DNA of 32,413 nt from Deltaproteobacteria bacterium (GTDB taxonomy: Bacteria; Desulfobacterota; Dissulfuribacteria; Dissulfuribacterales; QOAL01), in NCBI GenBank assembly GCA_026992735.1, contig JALWYO010000134.1, forward strand, positions 1 through 32,413, in the 5' to 3' direction. A model generated the notes under the pieces. The model searched no databases, had not been told where the DNA came from, and worked only from the letters and a program-made list of their open reading frames with translations. Made by a program: the position numbers and the translations under genes. Positions 14,634-32,413 of this stretch are shown one piece after another (within the stretch, counting starts at the first letter, position 1; each line of letters begins with the position of its first letter).

Positions 14634-14898
14634 GAAAGAAAGCCCCTGGATTTTGCATAGCATCCAGATCCTACCGGCAAATGATTTGGCAGGTTCTTGT
14701 ATTATATGGAAATTTTGATATTGACAGTGATAATATGGTGGTCTACCTTCAATTTTAATAAAGGGAGCAAGAGGTATATCTATCCTTTTCGGTGAATGGC
14801 TGGAATGGATAGTGCCATATTAGCGTAAAGCTGGGCGCAGCACGTTTTACCGGGCTGCAAGGGATTTGAATCGATTTTTTTGAACTGAAGGAGGGAAA

Positions 14899-15549
14899 AT
14901 GGCGATTATTATTGCATTTGTGGCCATAGTTTTGAGCATCTTTGGTCTCCTTGCCTATCAGCAGCTTGCGTCTCTCAGAGAAGAGTTCCAGGAGCTGAAG
15001 GATGCTGTAGAATCCGGGCAGCTTAAGGGCCCAAAGGGTGATCCAGGGCCTCCTGGCAGGCAAGGGCCTCCAGGGCCAAGGGGTGAGAAGGGCGAACCTG
15101 GGCCACAGGGTCCACAGGGTGAACCAGGACAGCAGGGCCCGCCGGGTCCGAAGGGTGAACAGGGCGAGCCGGGGCCGCAAGGACCTCCAGGTGAACCAGG
15201 TCCCCAGGGTGAGCCAGGGCCGCAGGGACCTCCAGGTCCTCAGGGACCGCCGGGTGAGAAGGGCGAACCAGGTCCGCAAGGTCCCAAGGGTGAACCCGGG
15301 CCACAAGGGCCTCCGGGGCCACAAGGGCCTCCAGGCGAACCAGGTCCGAAGGGTGAGCCTGGGCCACAGGGACCTCCAGGTCCGAAGGGCGACAAGGGCG
15401 AGCCAGGGCCACAGGGTCCCCAGGGTGAGCCGGGGCCGCAAGGACCTCCAGGTCCAAAGGGTGAGAAAGGTGATCGTGGGCCAAGGGGTCCAAGAGGAGC
15501 CAAGGGCGCTGCAGGCGGTAAGGCCACCAAGAAGAAGAAGGCTGAATAG
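14899..15549 (+). CDS. Membrane-anchored collagen-like (Gly-X-Y)n protein, 216 aa
   Basis: N-terminal TM segment [20 protein letters not shown], short helical linker, then 55 consecutive Gly-X-Y triplets, then [16 protein letters not shown] upstream. Confidence 0.93.
15028..15522 (+). repeat. Degenerate tandem repeat encoding the collagen-like Gly-X-Y tract
   Basis: 55 uninterrupted GXY codon triplets counted in the translation (residues 44-208). Confidence 0.9.
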
Positions 15550-18575: not shown

Positions 18576-18693
18576 GATTATGTCTCCTGTCCGGGATTAT
18601 CCCGGATTATCACTTCAATTGTCTGAGAAAAGTGATTTTTTAAATTATTTGCATTTTACAATACAGCAAGCGTAATGTCTCTGTAGGCATGAC

Positions 18694-22802: not shown

Positions 22803-23822
22803 TTAGTTGATCCAGGCCCCTGTCAGGGCAATGATCATTTCGCCAAACCGTTTGGTTTGTCCAATGAGCCTGACAGGCAACCTGGTTCCCGGGTCCAGGA
22901 ATATGTATATGTCATCTTGCAGGCCCAGCAGAGAGAATGCCTCGTCTTTCTCCCCCTTTTTGTCCATGCTTGCAGAGGTTATGAGAAATACCAAGGGTTT
23001 TATTGTCTTTTCTATTCTGCGTTCTCCCTGCAACCCATAGGACTCGAAAGCGATCTTGAGTGGTTTGAGCTTGGCAAGATGTACTGTTACCCTGTGAAGC
23101 CTTTTTTTGCCAAAGACGCATAACTGGAAGGGAAATCTGGTTTTCCCCACGTCTATCATGGACAGCAGGTGCAATAGCACCGTAGATTCTGAAATTACAG
23201 GACATGCTTTTACTTCTTTTTGAGGGTATTTGAAAAAAGATGCATGTCTTTTGTTCCATTTGTCAGGAGGTAGGGAGAATTCTTCGGGTTTGTCAGGACG
23301 GATTTTCAGGCGGCTTACCCCGTCTTCCTGCCATCTGTATGCCTTGAGCCATGGATGGGTGCCGTTTTTTAGCCTGATTCTTTGCAGGGCAGAACCTGTT
23401 TTAGTGTTAAACCAGACATGTTGGCTATACTCAGATTGCGGAGGAATAAGGGTTGATACAGCCGTTTCCACCGAGATAATCCCCAGATCCCTGCCAGGCA
23501 GAGGGCATGGCATAAAATCCGAGACAGCGTTTTTGATGGATTTGGGACAAAATTCTCTCGAAGGTCTCAACCGTACCGATGCCGTTATCCTGCTGAAGCC
23601 CTTGCCGCCCTGAAAATAAAGTTCTTTCCATGGCAGAGTCTTGTGTGGTTTTACCTTGAGTACAGGGTTGCTGCCGGCATTTCCGGCACCTACAGCAATA
23701 TCTGTCTGAAGGCATGCAGCAGTAGCTATCAGGACAGTTGCGAATACAGCCAGTCTTGTGATGTTCATGATAGAAAATCCGCCAGCAAGGTATGTAAAAA
23801 GTTTACTGAACATTGCGGTCAA
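22803..23822 (-). CDS. DUF3108-like exported protein
   Basis: Signal-like N-terminus MNITRLAVFATVLIATAACL; paired YQG-type segments and terminal DPGTRLPVRLIGQTKRFGEMIIALTG; only 27 nt upstream of the polyferredoxin gene. Confidence 0.6.
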   Translation of the reverse strand: MTAMFSKLFTYLAGGFSIMNITRLAVFATVLIATAACLQTDIAVGAGNAGSNPVLKVKPHKTLPWKELYFQGGKGFSRITASVRLRPSREFCPKSIKNAVSDFMPCPLPGRDLGIISVETAVSTLIPPQSEYSQHVWFNTKTGSALQRIRLKNGTHPWLKAYRWQEDGVSRLKIRPDKPEEFSLPPDKWNKRHASFFKYPQKEVKACPVISESTVLLHLLSMIDVGKTRFPFQLCVFGKKRLHRVTVHLAKLKPLKIAFESYGLQGERRIEKTIKPLVFLITSASMDKKGEKDEAFSLLGLQDDIYIFLDPGTRLPVRLIGQTKRFGEMIIALTGAWIN

Positions 23823-23890: not shown

Positions 23891-23946
23891 GTAACTGATC
23901 ACAGATTCCATTGGGCTTTACTGTATATTTCCCTTTTTGTAAGCGC
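23891..23946 (-). repeat. Dispersed intergenic repeat copy B (see 11221-11277)
   Basis: Reverse complement aligns over about 56 nt to copy A, mostly identical, with one indel. Confidence 0.85.
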
Positions 23947-24017
23947 TCACAGTCGTACTCCCTGTACTTCAAGCGCCCGCCAACACAGCAGATGCGGAGC
24001 CCTGTGAGCGCTTACAA
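23937..24017. repeat. Inverted repeat: perfect 16-bp arms (TTGTAAGCGCTCACAG / CTGTGAGCGCTTACAA) around a 49-nt loop
   Basis: Arms 23937-23952 and 24002-24017 are exact reverse complements. Confidence 0.9.
23963..23997 (+). repeat. 35-bp dispersed repeat core, copy 1
   Basis: TGTACTTCAAGCGCCCGCCAACACAGCAGATGCGG matches 27097-27131 at 31 of 35 positions. Confidence 0.9.
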
Positions 24018-24248: not shown

Positions 24249-26048
24249 ATGAAATTATCTCAAGTAGTTGCATCATCCCCTGCTAAAGGGAAAACATATT
24301 ACAAAGATACTACGAAACCAGTCAAAACGCCAACCCGCAATACTGTTTCTGTCAGGCAGGGTGATTTTAAGAACCTGGCAGAGGCCCTGGATTATGCTGC
24401 TGCCGGTCAGACTGGATACAATTTCTATTCAAGGCGTGGCAGCCTGTACCGGGCCATGCCCTATTCTGCGCTTCGTCATGAGGCCCGTATCCTGGCCAGA
24501 AAATTGCTGTATCTCAAGGTGCCCAGGGGGGCTTGCGTGGCAATTGTGGCAAACACCCACCCGGATTTCGTGCGTTTTTTCTTTGCCTGTCAGTATGCCG
24601 GGCTTGTTCCAGTGCCGCTTCCAATCGTAATGCATATAAATGGTGCAGATGCCTATGTGCAGCAGATATCCAGGTTGCTTGATATCTGCAAGGCCAGCAT
24701 GGCCGTGGCCACCAGCGAGTTTTTTAGCTACCTGGAGAGGGCTTGCGGGAGCCATGGTTTGAAATCTCCTTTTCTGGGAAAACCGGAGGATTTTGATGCA
24801 TTGCCTGAATCCAGCGCACAACTGGAACCCCTTGGGCAGAATGAGCTTGCCTATATCCAGTTCACATCCGGCAGCACCAGGTTCCCCAAGGGCGTGATGA
24901 TTACGCAGGATGCAGTGTTTAGCAATCTGGAGGCCATCACCAAATATGGGATTGATTGCCATGCAGGTGACAGGGCTGTCTCCTGGCTTCCATTTTATCA
25001 TGACATGGGTCTGGTAGGGCTGTTGCTTTCCACAATGGCCTCCCAGCTTTCTGTGGATTTTTTCAGCACAGCAGATTTTGCCATGAGACCTGGCCTGTGG
25101 CTAAAACTCATGTCGGAGAACAGGGGTACCATATCCTTCAGCCCCCCGTTCGGCTACGAGTTGGCATCCCTGCGGCTGAGGACGTCAGATGTAAATAATT
25201 ACGATCTGAGCTCGTGGCGTGTAGCTGGTGTTGGAGCAGAGATGATAAGGCCTGAATTGCTTGAGAATTTTGCAAAACGTCTTGAACCATGCGGCTTTGA
25301 TTCCAGTGCCTTTCTGCCATGTTATGGCATGGCCGAGTGCTCTCTGGCAGTGAGCTTTGCAAACCGCGGTGACGGTCTGCAGGTGGATAGGGTGGATGCA
25401 GAAAGGCTGGCTGCCGATAGGGAGGTGGTTCATCTTGATGAGCAGGTGTCAACGCATTCAGAAGGCAGGATCAAGACCTTTGTGAGATGCGGCAGGCCAT
25501 TGCCAGGGTTCGAGGTGGATATACGCGATTCCTTTGGCAAGCCGCTTCCTGTTGGCAAGCCCGGGATACTCTACGTCCGGGGGCCGAGTATCATGTCAGG
25601 ATATCTTGGTGATCAGGAGGCTGCCAGAGAGGTACTTTCTGAGGACGGCTGGCTTAATACCGGAGATATAGCATATATTTCCGGTTCGGATATAGTGATC
25701 ACCGGGCGCTCCAAGGACCTTATCATTATCAATGGCTGTAATATATGGCCCCAGGACCTGGAATACCTTGCCGAGACCCATGATCAGGTAAGGTTTGGGG
25801 ATACATGTGCATTTTCTGTAGCTGATGAATCCGGCAAGGAGAGGGCAGTGCTGGTGGTGCAGTGTAAAAAGATAGATGATGATGCAAAAAAAGCACTGTC
25901 CGACAGCATAAGGCGGCTTATTCTCAGGGAACTGGGCATAGAATGCCATGTGGTGCTGGTTCCAAAGAATACAATAGCACGCACCACGTCAGGTAAGCCT
26001 TCCAGAAGCACTACCAAGAAGACATGTCTTGAAAAAGGCTATGTCTGA
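24249..26048 (+). CDS. Fatty acyl-AMP ligase / acyl-ACP synthetase (AMP-binding enzyme), 599 aa
   Basis: YIQFTSGSTRFPKGVMITQDAV, SWLPFYHDMGLVG, YGMAECSLAVSF, GWLNTGDIAYISGSDIVITGRSKDLIIINGCNIWPQDLE. Confidence 0.93.
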   Translation: MKLSQVVASSPAKGKTYYKDTTKPVKTPTRNTVSVRQGDFKNLAEALDYAAAGQTGYNFYSRRGSLYRAMPYSALRHEARILARKLLYLKVPRGACVAIVANTHPDFVRFFFACQYAGLVPVPLPIVMHINGADAYVQQISRLLDICKASMAVATSEFFSYLERACGSHGLKSPFLGKPEDFDALPESSAQLEPLGQNELAYIQFTSGSTRFPKGVMITQDAVFSNLEAITKYGIDCHAGDRAVSWLPFYHDMGLVGLLLSTMASQLSVDFFSTADFAMRPGLWLKLMSENRGTISFSPPFGYELASLRLRTSDVNNYDLSSWRVAGVGAEMIRPELLENFAKRLEPCGFDSSAFLPCYGMAECSLAVSFANRGDGLQVDRVDAERLAADREVVHLDEQVSTHSEGRIKTFVRCGRPLPGFEVDIRDSFGKPLPVGKPGILYVRGPSIMSGYLGDQEAAREVLSEDGWLNTGDIAYISGSDIVITGRSKDLIIINGCNIWPQDLEYLAETHDQVRFGDTCAFSVADESGKERAVLVVQCKKIDDDAKKALSDSIRRLILRELGIECHVVLVPKNTIARTTSGKPSRSTTKKTCLEKGYV

Positions 26049-26108
26049 AAATTTTTAACATCCAAACCCGCATTTTTTGAAGCCGTTCTGCATGGGCTAC
26101 ACTGTTTT

Positions 26109-27032
26109 ATGACCAGGGTTATAGCAGTTACAGGCGCTACCGGTTTTATTGGCTCTGCCATTGTACAGAGGCTGCTTATAAACGGATTAAAAGTAAAGGC
26201 GCTTGTAAGGCCCTGTTCACGGCCTAAATGTTTCAGGCATCCGGCTGTTCTCTGGGTTGAGGGGGAACTGTCGGACAGGCGATCCCTAAAGAGGCTTGTT
26301 TCAGGTGCAGAAGCTGTAATTCATTGTGCAGGCGCAGTTCGTGGTTTCGCCAGGGAGGATTTTGATGCGGTGAATGTCTATCCTGTGCATGACCTGGTTG
26401 ACATATGCAATCATGCTCCTGGCATCTCGGCTTTTTTACTGATCTCATCACTTGCGGCCCGGCATCCTGATCTGTCTTTTTATGCCATGAGCAAACGGAA
26501 GGGCGAATCTGCCCTCAGCGCAATTAATCCGGATATACGCTGTACAGCATTCAGGCCGCCTGCGGTTTATGGGCCGGGTGACAGGGAGATCCGGCCTGTT
26601 TTAAAATTGATGAAAAGAGGCATAGCCCCGGTTATTGCCGGTCCCGGAAACCGTTTTTCCCTGCTTCACGTCCATGACCTTGCAGAGGCTGTTTTTTGCT
26701 GGTTGAATAGCAAGGTGTCCGGCGTGCATGTCTATGAGCTGCACGACGGTCTTGCAGGCGGATATTCATGGGAAGGTATTGCTGCGCTTGCCAGCCAGGC
26801 CTTGGGGAGGAGGATACTTAAGCTCCGCATACCCTTGCGTGTCCTGTCTGCTGTTGCGCTTTTCAATGTTTTCATATCCAGGTTGCATGGCACTCAGCCC
26901 ATGCTTACTCCTGGTAAGGTGAGAGAGCTTGTGCATTCGGATTGGGTTTGTGACAATAAAGCCATCTGTGAGGATACTGCGTGGAGGCCGGGTATCAGGC
27001 TGCAAGACGCTCTGAAACAGGGGCTTATATAA
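26109..27032 (+). CDS. NAD(P)-dependent epimerase/dehydratase (extended SDR), candidate ceramide/keto-sphinganine reductase
   Basis: VTGATGFIGSAIVQRL, VIHCAGAVRG, SSLAARHPDLSFYAMSKRKGE; position between the acyl-AMP ligase and ACP/SPT. Confidence 0.88.
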   Translation: MTRVIAVTGATGFIGSAIVQRLLINGLKVKALVRPCSRPKCFRHPAVLWVEGELSDRRSLKRLVSGAEAVIHCAGAVRGFAREDFDAVNVYPVHDLVDICNHAPGISAFLLISSLAARHPDLSFYAMSKRKGESALSAINPDIRCTAFRPPAVYGPGDREIRPVLKLMKRGIAPVIAGPGNRFSLLHVHDLAEAVFCWLNSKVSGVHVYELHDGLAGGYSWEGIAALASQALGRRILKLRIPLRVLSAVALFNVFISRLHGTQPMLTPGKVRELVHSDWVCDNKAICEDTAWRPGIRLQDALKQGLI

Positions 27033-27033
27033 A

Positions 27034-27267
27034 CCCGGATTATGCAGCTCGCAAGTTTGCCAAAGATGTGAGGCAGAGGGCACGCAGACGTACTTTTGTA
27101 CTTCAAGTGCCCGACAACAAAGCAGATTCGGTAAAATTGCGAGCCCCTTGCGGCTTCAAATGCCTGAGCACCTTTTGGATGAAGACACAACAGGAATAGA
27201 TGTATAGTAACTATGCAATAATTCAAATAAATTACTTTTTCCGGGCACTTGAAGTGCATAATCCGGG
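27034..27267. repeat. Composite repeat-rich intergenic element with nested inverted repeats
   Basis: CCCGGATTATGC (27034-27045)/GCATAATCCGGG (27256-27267); ACTTCAAGTGCCCG (27100-27113)/CGGGCACTTGAAGT (27242-27255); GCTCGCAA (27047-27054)/TTGCGAGC (27137-27144). Confidence 0.8.
27097..27131 (+). repeat. 35-bp dispersed repeat core, copy 2
   Basis: TGTACTTCAAGTGCCCGACAACAAAGCAGATTCGG; 31 of 35 identical to 23963-23997. Confidence 0.9.
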
Positions 27268-27300
27268 ATAAAGTAAAACGTAATGGGATAGGGGGGTGTT

Positions 27301-27552
27301 ATGAAGGCTGACAAGGAAGTCCTGGAAAAGATTATAGGCATACTGCAGCCGTTCGTTTCGGGCAGTGTAGATATAGTCCCGGGCATGGACATAGAGACAG
27401 ACCTGGCAATAGATTCCCTGAAGTCCATGGAGATACTGGCAAATCTGGAAGATACCTTTGATATATCCATTCCCATCAATGTCCTTTCCGAGGTGCGTAC
27501 TGTTGAAGACCTTGCTGTCCAGGTCCAGAAGATAATAGGAGCAGAAGGATAG
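27301..27552 (+). CDS. Acyl carrier protein
   Basis: 83 aa with phosphopantetheine site DLAIDSLKSMEIL; purine-rich RBS GGGGGGTG upstream. Confidence 0.92.
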   Translation: MKADKEVLEKIIGILQPFVSGSVDIVPGMDIETDLAIDSLKSMEILANLEDTFDISIPINVLSEVRTVEDLAVQVQKIIGAEG

Positions 27553-28733
27553 TGGGGCTGTTCGACAAGTTTGAGAAGATTGCCGCATCCAAAAGGGACC
27601 TGGAGAGTCAGTGCCCGGCCTTTTTTAATGTGGTGATACAGGATATTATCTCCAGCACCGAGGCTTTAATAGGCGGCAGGAAGGTAATCCTTGCAGGCAC
27701 CAACAATTATCTTGGTATGCCATTGCGCAGGGAATGTATCCAGGCAGCCTGTAAGGCCCTTCAGGAGGAGGGCACCGGCACCACTGGCTCCAGGATGGCC
27801 AATGGAACCTATGCCTCACACGTGGATCTTGAGAGGGATATTTCGGATTTCCTTGGGAAATCGAATACCATTGTTTTTACTACAGGTTACAGCGCCAATC
27901 TTGCCATGTTATCCACCATGGTCGGTCCCAGGGATTTTGTGCTGCTGGATGCAGACTGTCACGCAAGCATCTATGACGGTTGTCGCCTGGGTGGCGTCCA
28001 GGTATTCCGATTCAAGCACAATGACCTGGATGACCTTGAAAAGCGGCTAAAGAGGTTGTCCAACCAGGATGCCGATGTGCTGATAGTGGTTGAGGGCCTT
28101 TACAGCATGATGGGAGACAGGGCGTCTCTGCCCGGCATAGCGGCCCTCAAGGAAGAATACGGCGCATACCTCCTGGTAGACGAGGCCCATTCCCTTGGAG
28201 TGCTCGGCGAAACAGGCAGGGGCCTGGCTCAGGAAGCCGGAGTGGAAGATGCCGTGGACTTCGTGGTTGGCACCTTCAGCAAGAGCCTTGGCTCAGTTGG
28301 GGGATTCTGCTCAAGCAATCACAGCGAGCTTGAAATCATCCGTTATACCAGCCGCCCCTATGTCTTTACTGCCTCCTCTTCACCAGCCAATATCGCTGCT
28401 GCAAAGGCTGCCCTGTCCATTATCAGGAAGGAGCCAGGGTTGAGGGAGAAGCTTTGGGACAATGCGAATTTTCTCTATTCCAGGCTGAAGGCCATGGGAT
28501 TCCACGTAGGGCCTGAGGCAAGCCCGATCATTCCGGTACGCTGCGCCAGGATACAGGAGGCCTTTGCCATGTGGAACGCCTTGCTGGAAAGGGGCGTGTA
28601 CGTGAACATGGTCCTGCCTCCCGCCACCCCGGATGGCACCGCCCTGCTCAGGTGCAGCCTTAGCGCAGCCCATACCCACAGCCAGGTAGAAAGTATAGCC
28701 GATGCATTTGAAGCCCAGCGGCCTTCAGCCTGA
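27552..28733 (+). CDS. Serine palmitoyltransferase-like alpha-oxoamine synthase (PLP dependent)
   Basis: NNYLGMP, EGTGTTGSRMANGTYASHVDLERDISDFLGK, DADCHASIYDG, LLVDEAHSLGVLGETGRG, PLP lysine motif GTFSKSLGSVGG; GTG start overlaps ACP TAG by 1 nt. Confidence 0.9.
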   Translation: MGLFDKFEKIAASKRDLESQCPAFFNVVIQDIISSTEALIGGRKVILAGTNNYLGMPLRRECIQAACKALQEEGTGTTGSRMANGTYASHVDLERDISDFLGKSNTIVFTTGYSANLAMLSTMVGPRDFVLLDADCHASIYDGCRLGGVQVFRFKHNDLDDLEKRLKRLSNQDADVLIVVEGLYSMMGDRASLPGIAALKEEYGAYLLVDEAHSLGVLGETGRGLAQEAGVEDAVDFVVGTFSKSLGSVGGFCSSNHSELEIIRYTSRPYVFTASSSPANIAAAKAALSIIRKEPGLREKLWDNANFLYSRLKAMGFHVGPEASPIIPVRCARIQEAFAMWNALLERGVYVNMVLPPATPDGTALLRCSLSAAHTHSQVESIADAFEAQRPSA

Positions 28734-28782
28734 GAAAGTGCCTGTCTTGTAACTTATAACTTTTGGCTGCCTGTGAGCTGCA

Positions 28783-30498
28783 ATGAAATTCATTATCAGC
28801 TTTCTCAAACGCTATCCCCTGCAGAGCATCCTGACACTTCTCGCAATGCTCGTCGCAGGGATCGCAGAGGGATTCGGCATGTCAATGCTGCTTCCCATGC
28901 TGAGCCTGTCATCGCGGGGGGAGGCGTCTGCAGGCCATGTCAAGCATGCGGCTTCCACTCTGGAACAGGCCATTATCGGCCTCTTTTCCATGCTGGGAAT
29001 GCAGCCTACCATGGGTATCCTGCTGTTCATCTTTGTCATGAGCATAGTCGTCAAGGTGGTCCTGGTGCTGCTGGCAAACAGGAAGGTGGGATATATGGTG
29101 GCCAACGTGGCAACGGACCTGCGTCTCTCCCTGTTGAAGGCCATATTCGAGAGCAGCTGGAGTTACTACATCACCCAGCCTACTGGCAATATCACCAACT
29201 CTTTTGCCACTGAGGCAACCAGGTCCTCGGAGGCCTATCTGTTCGGCATGAGGCTTATTTCTGTGCTCATGAACGCGGCGGTTTATGCAGCAGTGGCCCT
29301 TATGGTGGCGTGGAAGGCCACATTGCTGGCCGTCTTTCTGGGATCAGGCATCCTGTTTCTGTTGAGATTCATGGTAAAACAGGCCAGGGCAGCCGGTAGG
29401 GACCAGACTGTTCTCCTGAAGTCTCTCCTGTCCTTCCTGACAGATATGCTCATGTCCATCAAGCCGCTGAAGGCCATGGCCAGGGAACAGGGTATGGAGT
29501 CCCTGCTCCGCAGGAAGACCCTGGAGCTGAACAGGGCGCTTCAGAGGCAGGTCTTCAGCAAGGAGGCGCTGAGGGCCCTGCAGGAACCCCTCATCACCAT
29601 CTTTTTTGCCATTGGACTCTACGTCGCACTGGTGTTCATGGAGCTGCCTCTCTCCAATGTCCTGGTTATGGTTTACATGTTGGCCAAGATATTAAAGGCC
29701 CTGCAGAGGGCACAGAAGGAACAGCAGTCCATGGTCATTGCCGAGAGCGCATACTGGTCGATCTTGTCCAGGATAAGGGATGCGGAAGAACAGAAGGAGA
29801 AATTCCAGGGCAGACGTTTTCCAGAATTCCGCAAGGCAGTGATACTCTCAGAAATTGTGATGACTTACCGGGACAAGCCCGTGCTGAACGGGCTGGACAT
29901 GGAGGTGCTGAAGGGGTCTTTTACCGCCCTGGTAGGGCCGTCAGGGGCAGGCAAGACCACTGTGGTGGACCTGATTACCGGGCTGTTCCGGCCCCAGGAG
30001 GGCAAAGTCCTGGTGGACGGCGTGCCTCTTGATGAAATAGACCTGCGCAAGTGGCGGGAGATGATAGGCTACGTCCCCCAGGAGACCCTCTTGCTCCATG
30101 ATACCGTGCTGTTCAACATCACCCTGGGGGATGAGAGCATATCCAGGGAGGATGCCATCGATGCCCTCAGGAAGGCAGGGGCATGGGAATTCGTATCCCA
30201 GCTTCCAGAGGGGATAGACAGCGTAGTGGGAGAACGGGGAGGGCTGATCTCTGGAGGCCAGAGACAGAGGATAACCATTGCCAGGGCCTTGGCCAAGAAG
30301 CCTGCCCTGCTTATAATGGACGAGGCTACAAGCGCCCTAGACCCGGAGACAGAGCTGGAAATCTGCAAGACCCTCAGGGGCCTCAGGGAACAGGTGACCG
30401 TGCTGGCAATATCCCACCAGGAGACCATTCTCAGGGAAGCGGACAGGGCCTATGTTCTCGAAAACGGGCGGGCAAGGTTCATGAAGGGAGGGATGTGA
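28783..30498 (+). CDS. ABC transporter, fused permease-ATPase (MsbA-like exporter), 571 aa
   Basis: N-terminal TM domain; Walker A GPSGAGKTT, signature LISGGQRQRITIARAL, Walker B ALLIMDEATSALD. Confidence 0.95.
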   Translation: MKFIISFLKRYPLQSILTLLAMLVAGIAEGFGMSMLLPMLSLSSRGEASAGHVKHAASTLEQAIIGLFSMLGMQPTMGILLFIFVMSIVVKVVLVLLANRKVGYMVANVATDLRLSLLKAIFESSWSYYITQPTGNITNSFATEATRSSEAYLFGMRLISVLMNAAVYAAVALMVAWKATLLAVFLGSGILFLLRFMVKQARAAGRDQTVLLKSLLSFLTDMLMSIKPLKAMAREQGMESLLRRKTLELNRALQRQVFSKEALRALQEPLITIFFAIGLYVALVFMELPLSNVLVMVYMLAKILKALQRAQKEQQSMVIAESAYWSILSRIRDAEEQKEKFQGRRFPEFRKAVILSEIVMTYRDKPVLNGLDMEVLKGSFTALVGPSGAGKTTVVDLITGLFRPQEGKVLVDGVPLDEIDLRKWREMIGYVPQETLLLHDTVLFNITLGDESISREDAIDALRKAGAWEFVSQLPEGIDSVVGERGGLISGGQRQRITIARALAKKPALLIMDEATSALDPETELEICKTLRGLREQVTVLAISHQETILREADRAYVLENGRARFMKGGM

Positions 30499-30791: not shown

Positions 30792-31859
30792 ATGAATTGC
30801 GGTAATGATGATATCCCCTTTGAGAAAAAGGCATTGGAGGCAGCCATAAGGATTGCAGTTGTGGCTGCGCTTGTGGTCTGGACATACCAGATTATTCGGC
30901 CGTTTATCATGCCGGTTATCTGGGGAGCCATCCTTGCCATTGCCGTTGAGCCGTTTATTGCAATATGTTCAGAGCGGCTCCATGGAAGGCGTAAGCTGGT
31001 ATCCATTCTGTTTGCGCTTATCATTATCCTGGCGCTCATCGTGCCTGTGATAAAGCTTTCCTCGTCTTCCATTGTTGCCCTGCAGCCGGTAATCAAGAAT
31101 ATTGATAAGGTCCACATCACAATTCCTCCTCCTCCGGAAAATGTAAAGGCATGGCCTGTTATTGGCGAATATGTATCGGATTTATGGTCTCTTGCCACCA
31201 CTAATATTGCTGGACTCGTCAGGCAGTTTGAACCACAGATAAAATCTGCAGTGCTGTTTCTGCTGGGTCTTATAAGCGGCGGGGTCAAGGCTGTGCTGGT
31301 CTTCATCATCTCCATTGGTATTGCATCGGCAATCCTGGCAACGGCAGACAAGTCGACTGCAGCCATACACAGGGTGATACGGAGGTTTGCCGGTCAGAAG
31401 GCGGATGCAATCCGCAACCTCGCCACTGCCACCATCAGGGCAGTGATGCTCGGGGTTGTGGGCGTGGCAGTCATTCAATCCCTGCTTGCTGCACTTGGAA
31501 TGTTGATAGCCGGCATACCCCTTACGGGGTTGTGGGCCGTGCTGGTATTGATACTGGCAGTGCTTCAGCTTCCGCCCATACTGGTCCTGGGGCCGGTAGC
31601 CGGATGGTATTTTACAGCCACAGACAGCACAACATTTGCCGTGGTATTCCTGATATGGTGTGTAATGGTAAGCACCATTGATGGTTTTCTGAAACCCCTG
31701 TTCATGGGCCGAGGGGTGAATATCCCCATGCCGGTGATACTGCTGGGCGCCCTGGGCGGCATGATGTTTTCTGGCATAATAGGCCTGTTTATAGGCGCAG
31801 TGGTGGTTGCCATCAGTTATATACTGTTCATGGCCTGGGTCGATGAGGTTGAGGAGTGA
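30792..31859 (+). CDS. AI-2E (PerM/TqsA) family transporter
   Basis: 355 aa with TM helices; IRPFIMPVIWGAILAIAVEPF, GIPLTGLWAVLVLILAVLQLPPILVLGP, FLKPLFMGRGVNIPMPVILLGALGGMMFSGIIGLFIGAVVVA. Confidence 0.92.
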   Translation: MNCGNDDIPFEKKALEAAIRIAVVAALVVWTYQIIRPFIMPVIWGAILAIAVEPFIAICSERLHGRRKLVSILFALIIILALIVPVIKLSSSSIVALQPVIKNIDKVHITIPPPPENVKAWPVIGEYVSDLWSLATTNIAGLVRQFEPQIKSAVLFLLGLISGGVKAVLVFIISIGIASAILATADKSTAAIHRVIRRFAGQKADAIRNLATATIRAVMLGVVGVAVIQSLLAALGMLIAGIPLTGLWAVLVLILAVLQLPPILVLGPVAGWYFTATDSTTFAVVFLIWCVMVSTIDGFLKPLFMGRGVNIPMPVILLGALGGMMFSGIIGLFIGAVVVAISYILFMAWVDEVEE

Positions 31860-31893: not shown

Positions 31894-32413
31894 TTACTTC
31901 ATCCTGGAGGGATTGAACCTGATGCCTATTTCTACAGGGCCGGGGCGCAGCTCTGGAGGCAGTGGCGGCAGAGGATCGGCATCGTTTACGGCCTTCAGCA
32001 CCGATCGGTCGAATGCTGCGAATCCAGAGCGTCTCTCAAACTGCCGGCTGATTATGTGGCCATCAGCCATTATCCTGATGGAGACTATTGCCTCTATGTC
32101 TTTCTTGTTAAGCAGATCCTCCGGGAAGTGCCAGTTTTTCCGTACCTTCATCCATATTGCGCCAGCATATTGTTTTAATGTGTTGCTTGTTCCTGAGCCA
32201 GCGGCAAGGCCTGCCGATGCCGATGTGCCCTGGCTGGCGCCGGACATTACCTTTTTCTGAATGCTTGCCAGGCGTTCCTGGAGCCTCTTTTCTTCTTTTT
32301 GATTCTCTCTGACCCTTTTTTCTATATCCTTAAGGTGCTGTGAGAACCTGTTCTCTTCGCTGTTTTTTTGCTTCTGTATGGCAGTCTTTTTCCTGGCTGG
32401 CGGCTTGGAGGCC
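31894..32413 (-). CDS. TolA/TonB C-terminal-domain protein, partial (5' end beyond window)
   Basis: YAGAIWMKVRKNWHFPEDLLNKKDIEAIVSIRIMADGHIISRQFERRSGFAAFDRSVLKAVNDADPLPPLP; frame stays open upstream as a coiled-coil (KDIEKRVRENQKEEKRLQERLASIQKKV) to the window edge. Confidence 0.82.
   Translation of the reverse strand, partial: ASKPPARKKTAIQKQKNSEENRFSQHLKDIEKRVRENQKEEKRLQERLASIQKKVMSGASQGTSASAGLAAGSGTSNTLKQYAGAIWMKVRKNWHFPEDLLNKKDIEAIVSIRIMADGHIISRQFERRSGFAAFDRSVLKAVNDADPLPPLPPELRPGPVEIGIRFNPSRMK

Follow-up and report, generated by a model that had tools for sequence, protein, structure and literature searches.

The window (the whole 32,413-nucleotide stretch of DNA analysed here) contains at 24249-30498 a cassette of five intact open reading frames, all on the plus strand (Table 1), which is most likely a ceramide-backbone operon feeding an outer-membrane lipid resembling ceramide-phosphoglycerate. 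Judging from gene content, the cassette very probably supplies an envelope sphingolipid with its ceramide backbone and probably also flips this lipid, while the head group would be added by the products of genes on other contigs of the same genome. In the predicted route, AasR would activate a fatty acid with ATP and load it onto AcpR, and the serine palmitoyltransferase (SPT) would convert acyl-AcpR and L-serine into 3-oxo-sphinganine; a ceramide synthase encoded on contig C96 would N-acylate this intermediate and CerR would reduce its 3-keto group, although which of the two reactions comes first is debated in Caulobacter. A kinase/transferase set (C117, C128, C111 and C96) could then turn ceramide into a product with a phospho-head-group of the ceramide-phosphoglycerate kind, the ABC exporter may flip ceramide or this product across the inner membrane, and a second LptF2/LptG2 pair (C111) would hand the lipid on towards the outer membrane. 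Each of these reactions, the exact head group and the exporter cargo are predictions from the genes.

Table 1. Features of the sphingolipid cassette and its immediate surroundings in the window
Feature	Position	Strand	Description
conserved envelope protein, upstream of aasR	22803-23822	-	339 aa; hydrophobic N-terminus, beta-rich
aasR, fatty acyl-AMP ligase / acyl-ACP synthetase	24249-26048	+	599 aa; PF00501 + NF006624
cerR, NAD-dependent epimerase/SDR, candidate 3-keto (ceramide) reductase	26109-27032	+	307 aa; PF01370
inverted-repeat element between cerR and acpR	27025-27276		arms 27025-27046 / 27255-27276; outside pathway
acpR, specialised acyl carrier protein	27301-27552	+	83 aa; PF00550
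spt, serine palmitoyltransferase	27552-28733	+	393 aa; PF00155 + NF047599
ABC exporter, candidate sphingolipid flippase	28783-30498	+	571 aa; PF00664 + PF00005

Gene order and identity of the serine palmitoyltransferase

The preliminary description had proposed five co-directional genes of named families, and all of them were recovered intact at the stated coordinates, with Pfam and NCBIfam assignments that are concordant for the first four. The cassette order is repeated in genomes of the same genus (protein identity 52-83%) as well as in more remote relatives, and the first four genes occur in identical order in E. coli BL21, so the arrangement is not a chance one. The known Caulobacter ceramide core consists of aasR-cerR-acpR-spt and a separately transcribed ceramide synthase (PMC11324152, PMC9386255). 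The C. crescentus locus CC_1168-CC_1152 (PMC11324152) shares with the window the order aasR-cerR-acpR-spt (CC_1165-1162) and shares with the host a separate cerS followed by a CofC-like nucleotidyltransferase and, by domain type, a kinase, a CDP-alcohol transferase, a phosphoesterase, nucleotidyltransferases and a second LptF/LptG pair. It differs in phylum, in that the parts lie on several contigs here, and in that an ABC exporter follows spt in the window; the "potential flippase" of Caulobacter is CC_1166 (PMC11324152). The 268-bp gap between cerR and acpR holds an inverted-repeat element with 22-nt arms (82% complementary), partial copies of which occur elsewhere in the genome, including at 18597-18665 and 23942-23997 of the window, and also on L145 and L003. 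The corresponding gap in same-genus relatives is about 100 bp, which suggests that the element is a small insertion of mobile or REP type within the operon.

The SPT scored 594 bits on the serine palmitoyltransferase equivalog NF047599 (cut-off 500), both motifs quoted for it earlier, GTGTTGSRMANGTYASH and GTFSKSLGSVGG, are present in the protein, and its best solved relatives are annotated serine palmitoyltransferases (2x8u, E 1e-116). Alpha-oxoamine synthases (AOS enzymes) all share a fold and core motifs, and the BioF model still gave 337 bits, which would fit a KBL, BioF or HemA in a cassette unrelated to sphingolipids. However, the protein is above the SPT cut-off and below those of BioF (426), KBL (460/493) and HemA (339). 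A maximum-likelihood tree of 43 alpha-oxoamine synthases placed it with its Desulfobacterota relatives, E. coli BL21, Rahnella, the solved S. wittichii SPT, and one gammaproteobacterial and two alphaproteobacterial loci in a single clade (support 100/99), outside of which fell KBL, HemA, BioF and the Sphingobacterium-type SPT. Placement in a KBL/BioF clade, which the preliminary description had named as the outcome contrary to its reading, was thus not what the tree returned. Another AOS-like gene of the host, on C22, is paired with E. coli BioF in the tree, though weakly supported. The NCBIfam models and the tree together lead us to reject the KBL, BioF or HemA identity, and we consider such a reading extremely improbable; the protein is instead supported as a rhodobacterial-type SPT, predicted to make 3-oxo-sphinganine from serine and acyl-AcpR. 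The Bacteroidota-type SPT (S. multivorum 3a2b; NF047600) belongs to the same reaction family and forms a separate clade from the window SPT.

The catalytic lysine, the stacking histidine and the Asp/His pair are retained, with K244 (the Schiff-base lysine, at 28281-28283), H137, D210, H213 and R367 corresponding to Lys265, His159, Asp231, His234 and Arg390 of the S. paucimobilis enzyme. Arg378 of the latter, which swings to the serine carboxylate, is replaced by Leu355, which puts the amino-acid substrate slightly in doubt. The same position is Leu/Ile in the E. coli BL21 and Rahnella SPTs, so Arg378 does not define the clade in general.

Ceramide core and head-group genes

The remaining backbone genes were assigned from family models, motifs and comparison with the E. 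coli BL21(DE3) locus yghO-aasR-epi-acpR-spt (NC_012971 2989282-2994885), in which yghO is adjacent and divergent and spt is followed by LptG/LptF instead of a neighbouring ABC exporter. AasR scored 733 bits on the fatty acyl-AMP ligase model NF006624 (cut-off 600), carries the motif TSGSTRFPKG at residue 206, is 44% identical to its E. coli counterpart and has the fatty acyl-adenylate ligase 3pbk as its best solved relative. CerR (45% identity, full length) contains GATGFIG at residue 9 and YxxxK at 125, and AcpR (48% identity over 61 aa) matches PF00550 with 38 bits and has its attachment serine at Ser39 (DSL); the identity of the SPTs is 50%. A separate, higher-scoring ACP (PP-binding) is encoded on contig C25, so that the specialised carrier stands beside a housekeeping one.

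The ceramide synthase lies in the same genome on contig C96, where the longest reading frame of cerS begins 164 bases from the contig start and is followed by a CofC/MobA-like nucleotidyltransferase; its product is 43% identical to E. coli YghO (E 6e-102). PF04339, tried as a proxy for the bacterial ceramide synthase, had no match in the genome and suggested that the enzyme was absent until the YghO search found it; E. coli YghO itself has no Pfam match. In 12 relatives (G002, G005, G007, G011, G026, G033, G041, G161, G208, G290, G322 and G360) cerS is located a few kb or less from the cassette. The Caulobacter-type set is consequently complete in this genome, with four genes in the window and cerS on C96, and we hold with high confidence, on sequence grounds, that this predicted ceramide core is real. 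The earlier proposal of a Caulobacter-type core sphingolipid locus is largely supported by the SPT equivalog match and tree placement, the gene order, and cerS in the same genome.

Genes potentially encoding head-group synthesis and transport are best seen in G002, of the same genus, where a single run comprises, in order, a Tam41-like nucleotidyltransferase, a DAGK-type kinase, a CDP-alcohol transferase, a metallophosphoesterase, LptG2, LptF2, a LicC-like nucleotidyltransferase, cerS, a CofC-like nucleotidyltransferase and the envelope protein, and continues into aasR-cerR-acpR-spt-ABC, in which aasR is followed by an additional small gene. Every one of these head-group and transport gene types was found in the window's genome: the end of C117 carries the phosphoesterase, the CDP-alcohol transferase (65% to G002) and the first part of the kinase; C128 carries the remainder of the kinase and the Tam41-like gene; C111 carries LptG2, LptF2 and the LicC-like nucleotidyltransferase; and C96 carries cerS with the CofC-like nucleotidyltransferase. 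Because kinase sequence is on both C117 and C128, and the ends of C111 and C96 have nine bases in common, these pieces may join. The pathway parts occupy five contigs in the assembly, and the locus appears split in this genome, since something other than a G002-type head-group block lies upstream of the cassette. In the closed single-contig genome G208 the whole set is contiguous except the DAGK-type kinase, which is absent from the cluster. The gene identities, the SPT placement, the gene linkage and the presence of all parts in one genome can thus be read from the sequences themselves.

The head-group genes were likened to the Caulobacter ceramide-phosphoglycerate genes CC_1152-CC_1161 by domain type and gene order rather than by direct alignment, and it is on this basis that putative ceramide kinase, CDP-alcohol transferase, and CC_1161-, CC_1153-, CC_1152- and CC_1158-like proteins are recorded as present. 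The CC_1161-like protein had no Pfam match and nothing was found for it in a sequence search of solved structures, its Tam41 likeness being judged by eye and from gene position. A strong CDP-alcohol transferase match was found in all 13 relatives tested that have the close SPT type, whereas three genomes of the same order (the taxonomic rank) that lack this type had none, nor did the alpha- and gammaproteobacterial genomes tested. Taken as a predicted set, these genes make a phospho-head-group of the ceramide-phosphoglycerate kind likely.

They also bear on whether the main substrate of the SPT-like enzyme is alanine, glycine or a different amino acid, which would yield 1-deoxy-ceramides or another 2-amino-ketone lipid, the latter having been offered as an alternative in the preliminary description. 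Apart from Leu355, such a product would accord with the Black Sea 1-deoxy-ceramides tentatively tied to Desulfobacterota (PMC11334938) and with the weak use of alanine and glycine by SPTs (PMC10196870). On the other hand, Arg378 is likewise absent from the E. coli and Rahnella members of the clade, and the host encodes a ceramide-kinase/CDP-alcohol transferase set, which needs the 1-OH and accompanies this SPT type in 13/13 relatives tested. The presence of a ceramide synthase, together with a kinase/transferase set of the kind acting on the 1-OH of ceramide, makes a 2-amino ketone lipid less likely, and we regard this alternative as improbable.

The ABC exporter as a candidate flippase

The exporter combines a membrane domain and an ATPase in a single chain, with Walker A GPSGAGKTT at 385, ISGGQRQR at 489 and LLIMDEATSALD at 509, and passes no listed NCBIfam exporter cut-off. 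It had been called MsbA-like, a term which holds for the ABC exporter architecture, common to this protein and the MsbA lipid A exporter, and is loose otherwise. It scored 244 bits on the MsbA model TIGR02203 (cut-off 602), while a separate MsbA-like gene of the host on C9 scored 524 bits. In the exporter tree, 14 Desulfobacterota cassettes and one gammaproteobacterial sphingolipid locus formed one branch (100/99), an own clade relative to the few outgroup exporters included and set apart from E. coli MsbA and the host's own MsbA-like protein. The sub-cut-off score, the separate host gene and the separate branch rule out that the exporter is MsbA.

Linkage was counted over 27 genomes whose SPT is of the close type (>=54% identity), 26 of which had enough sequence after spt. 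The exporter lies directly after spt on the same strand in 21 of these 26, is about 6.5 kb away in G337, and was not seen nearby in four (G009, G041, G203 and G322). The spt-exporter pair is intact in G166, where aasR-cerR-acpR is on the opposite strand; the exporter is inside the one contiguous cluster of G208, and it stands beside lptF2/G2 at the gammaproteobacterial sphingolipid locus. Own clade and position directly after spt in 21/26 make it a candidate sphingolipid flippase, and gene linkage and phylogeny lead us to favour this role slightly. The export part of the earlier cassette proposal thus stands as far as linkage and phylogeny reach, the cargo being inferred.

Alternatively, the exporter could carry another lipid, a glycan precursor or a drug, its place after spt being incidental. 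ABC exporters of the same fold have varied cargo, among solved structures the closest in sequence are P-glycoproteins and PglK, glycosyltransferase-like genes follow the exporter in some relatives, and four genomes with this SPT lack it nearby. Against this, the exporter follows spt in most evaluable genomes, forms one clade that extends to a gammaproteobacterial sphingolipid locus, and stays paired with spt in G166 where the other cassette genes are on the other strand. We consider another cargo a substantial though somewhat doubtful possibility. In its most specific form, the sphingolipid reading, of which we are about equally persuaded and unpersuaded, is that of a dedicated bacterial sphingolipid flippase with its own clade (Desulfobacterota and at least one gammaproteobacterium), acting with the second LptF/LptG pair. 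No flippase for bacterial sphingolipids has been identified yet according to PMC11087976; a dedicated flippase, if true, would fill the inner-membrane step left unidentified there, and the exporter offers a specific, testable candidate for it.

Distribution in Desulfobacterota and neighbouring genes

SPT matches at E 1e-90 or better were found in 59 of 396 genomes sampled across the phylum, 18 of them close (>=54% identity) and the remainder at <=45%; two of the latter, put in the tree, grouped with Bacteroidota-type SPTs. Named close relatives are "Deltaproteobacteria" metagenome assemblies. SPT-like genes in Desulfobacterota have been reported from metagenomes (PMC11334938), and a Bacteroidota-type SPT for delta-proteobacteria such as Myxococcus (PMC9386255). 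The putative ceramide core represents an already known type of pathway, here in a phylum that has been little studied, and it is the exporter link that most deserves to be followed up. A complete predicted ceramide pathway that depends on AcpR, together with genes for a phospho-head-group and for Lpt-type transport, is now placed in Desulfobacterota, which could help tie sphingolipids of anoxic settings to their producers. In G001, of the same genus, two separate contigs (L009 and L010) each carry an spt gene, the two being almost equally close to that of the window (79% and 78%), which reflects either duplication or strain variation in the bin.

The envelope protein upstream of aasR matched no Pfam or NCBIfam family; its predicted fold (pLDDT 79.5) resembles Brucella DUF1849 (6ntr, E 1e-5, TM ~0.5). 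Homologues adjoin aasR in G001, G002, G005, G007 and G011 (six genomes including the window's). It is possibly linked to the pathway and could be a periplasmic partner of the lipid. After the exporter, several relatives encode a protein of ~380-440 aa without an NCBIfam match (L121:12598-13935, L123:11794-12939, L190:6694-7941), and some a glycosyltransferase; this protein, which has a 66% homologue elsewhere in the window's own genome (G000:C74:9645-10826), may act on the head group. Farther upstream in the window, a plus-strand reading frame at 14899-15549 matches the Pfam collagen repeat (E 2.5e-30) and overlaps an opposite-strand frame at 14755-15441; the plus-strand frame could encode a collagen-like repeat protein or could be an artefact of repeats. 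Downstream of the cassette lie an AI-2E family transporter (30792-31859, plus strand) and a TonB-type C-terminal protein (31894-32412, minus strand), both of which look unrelated to the pathway.
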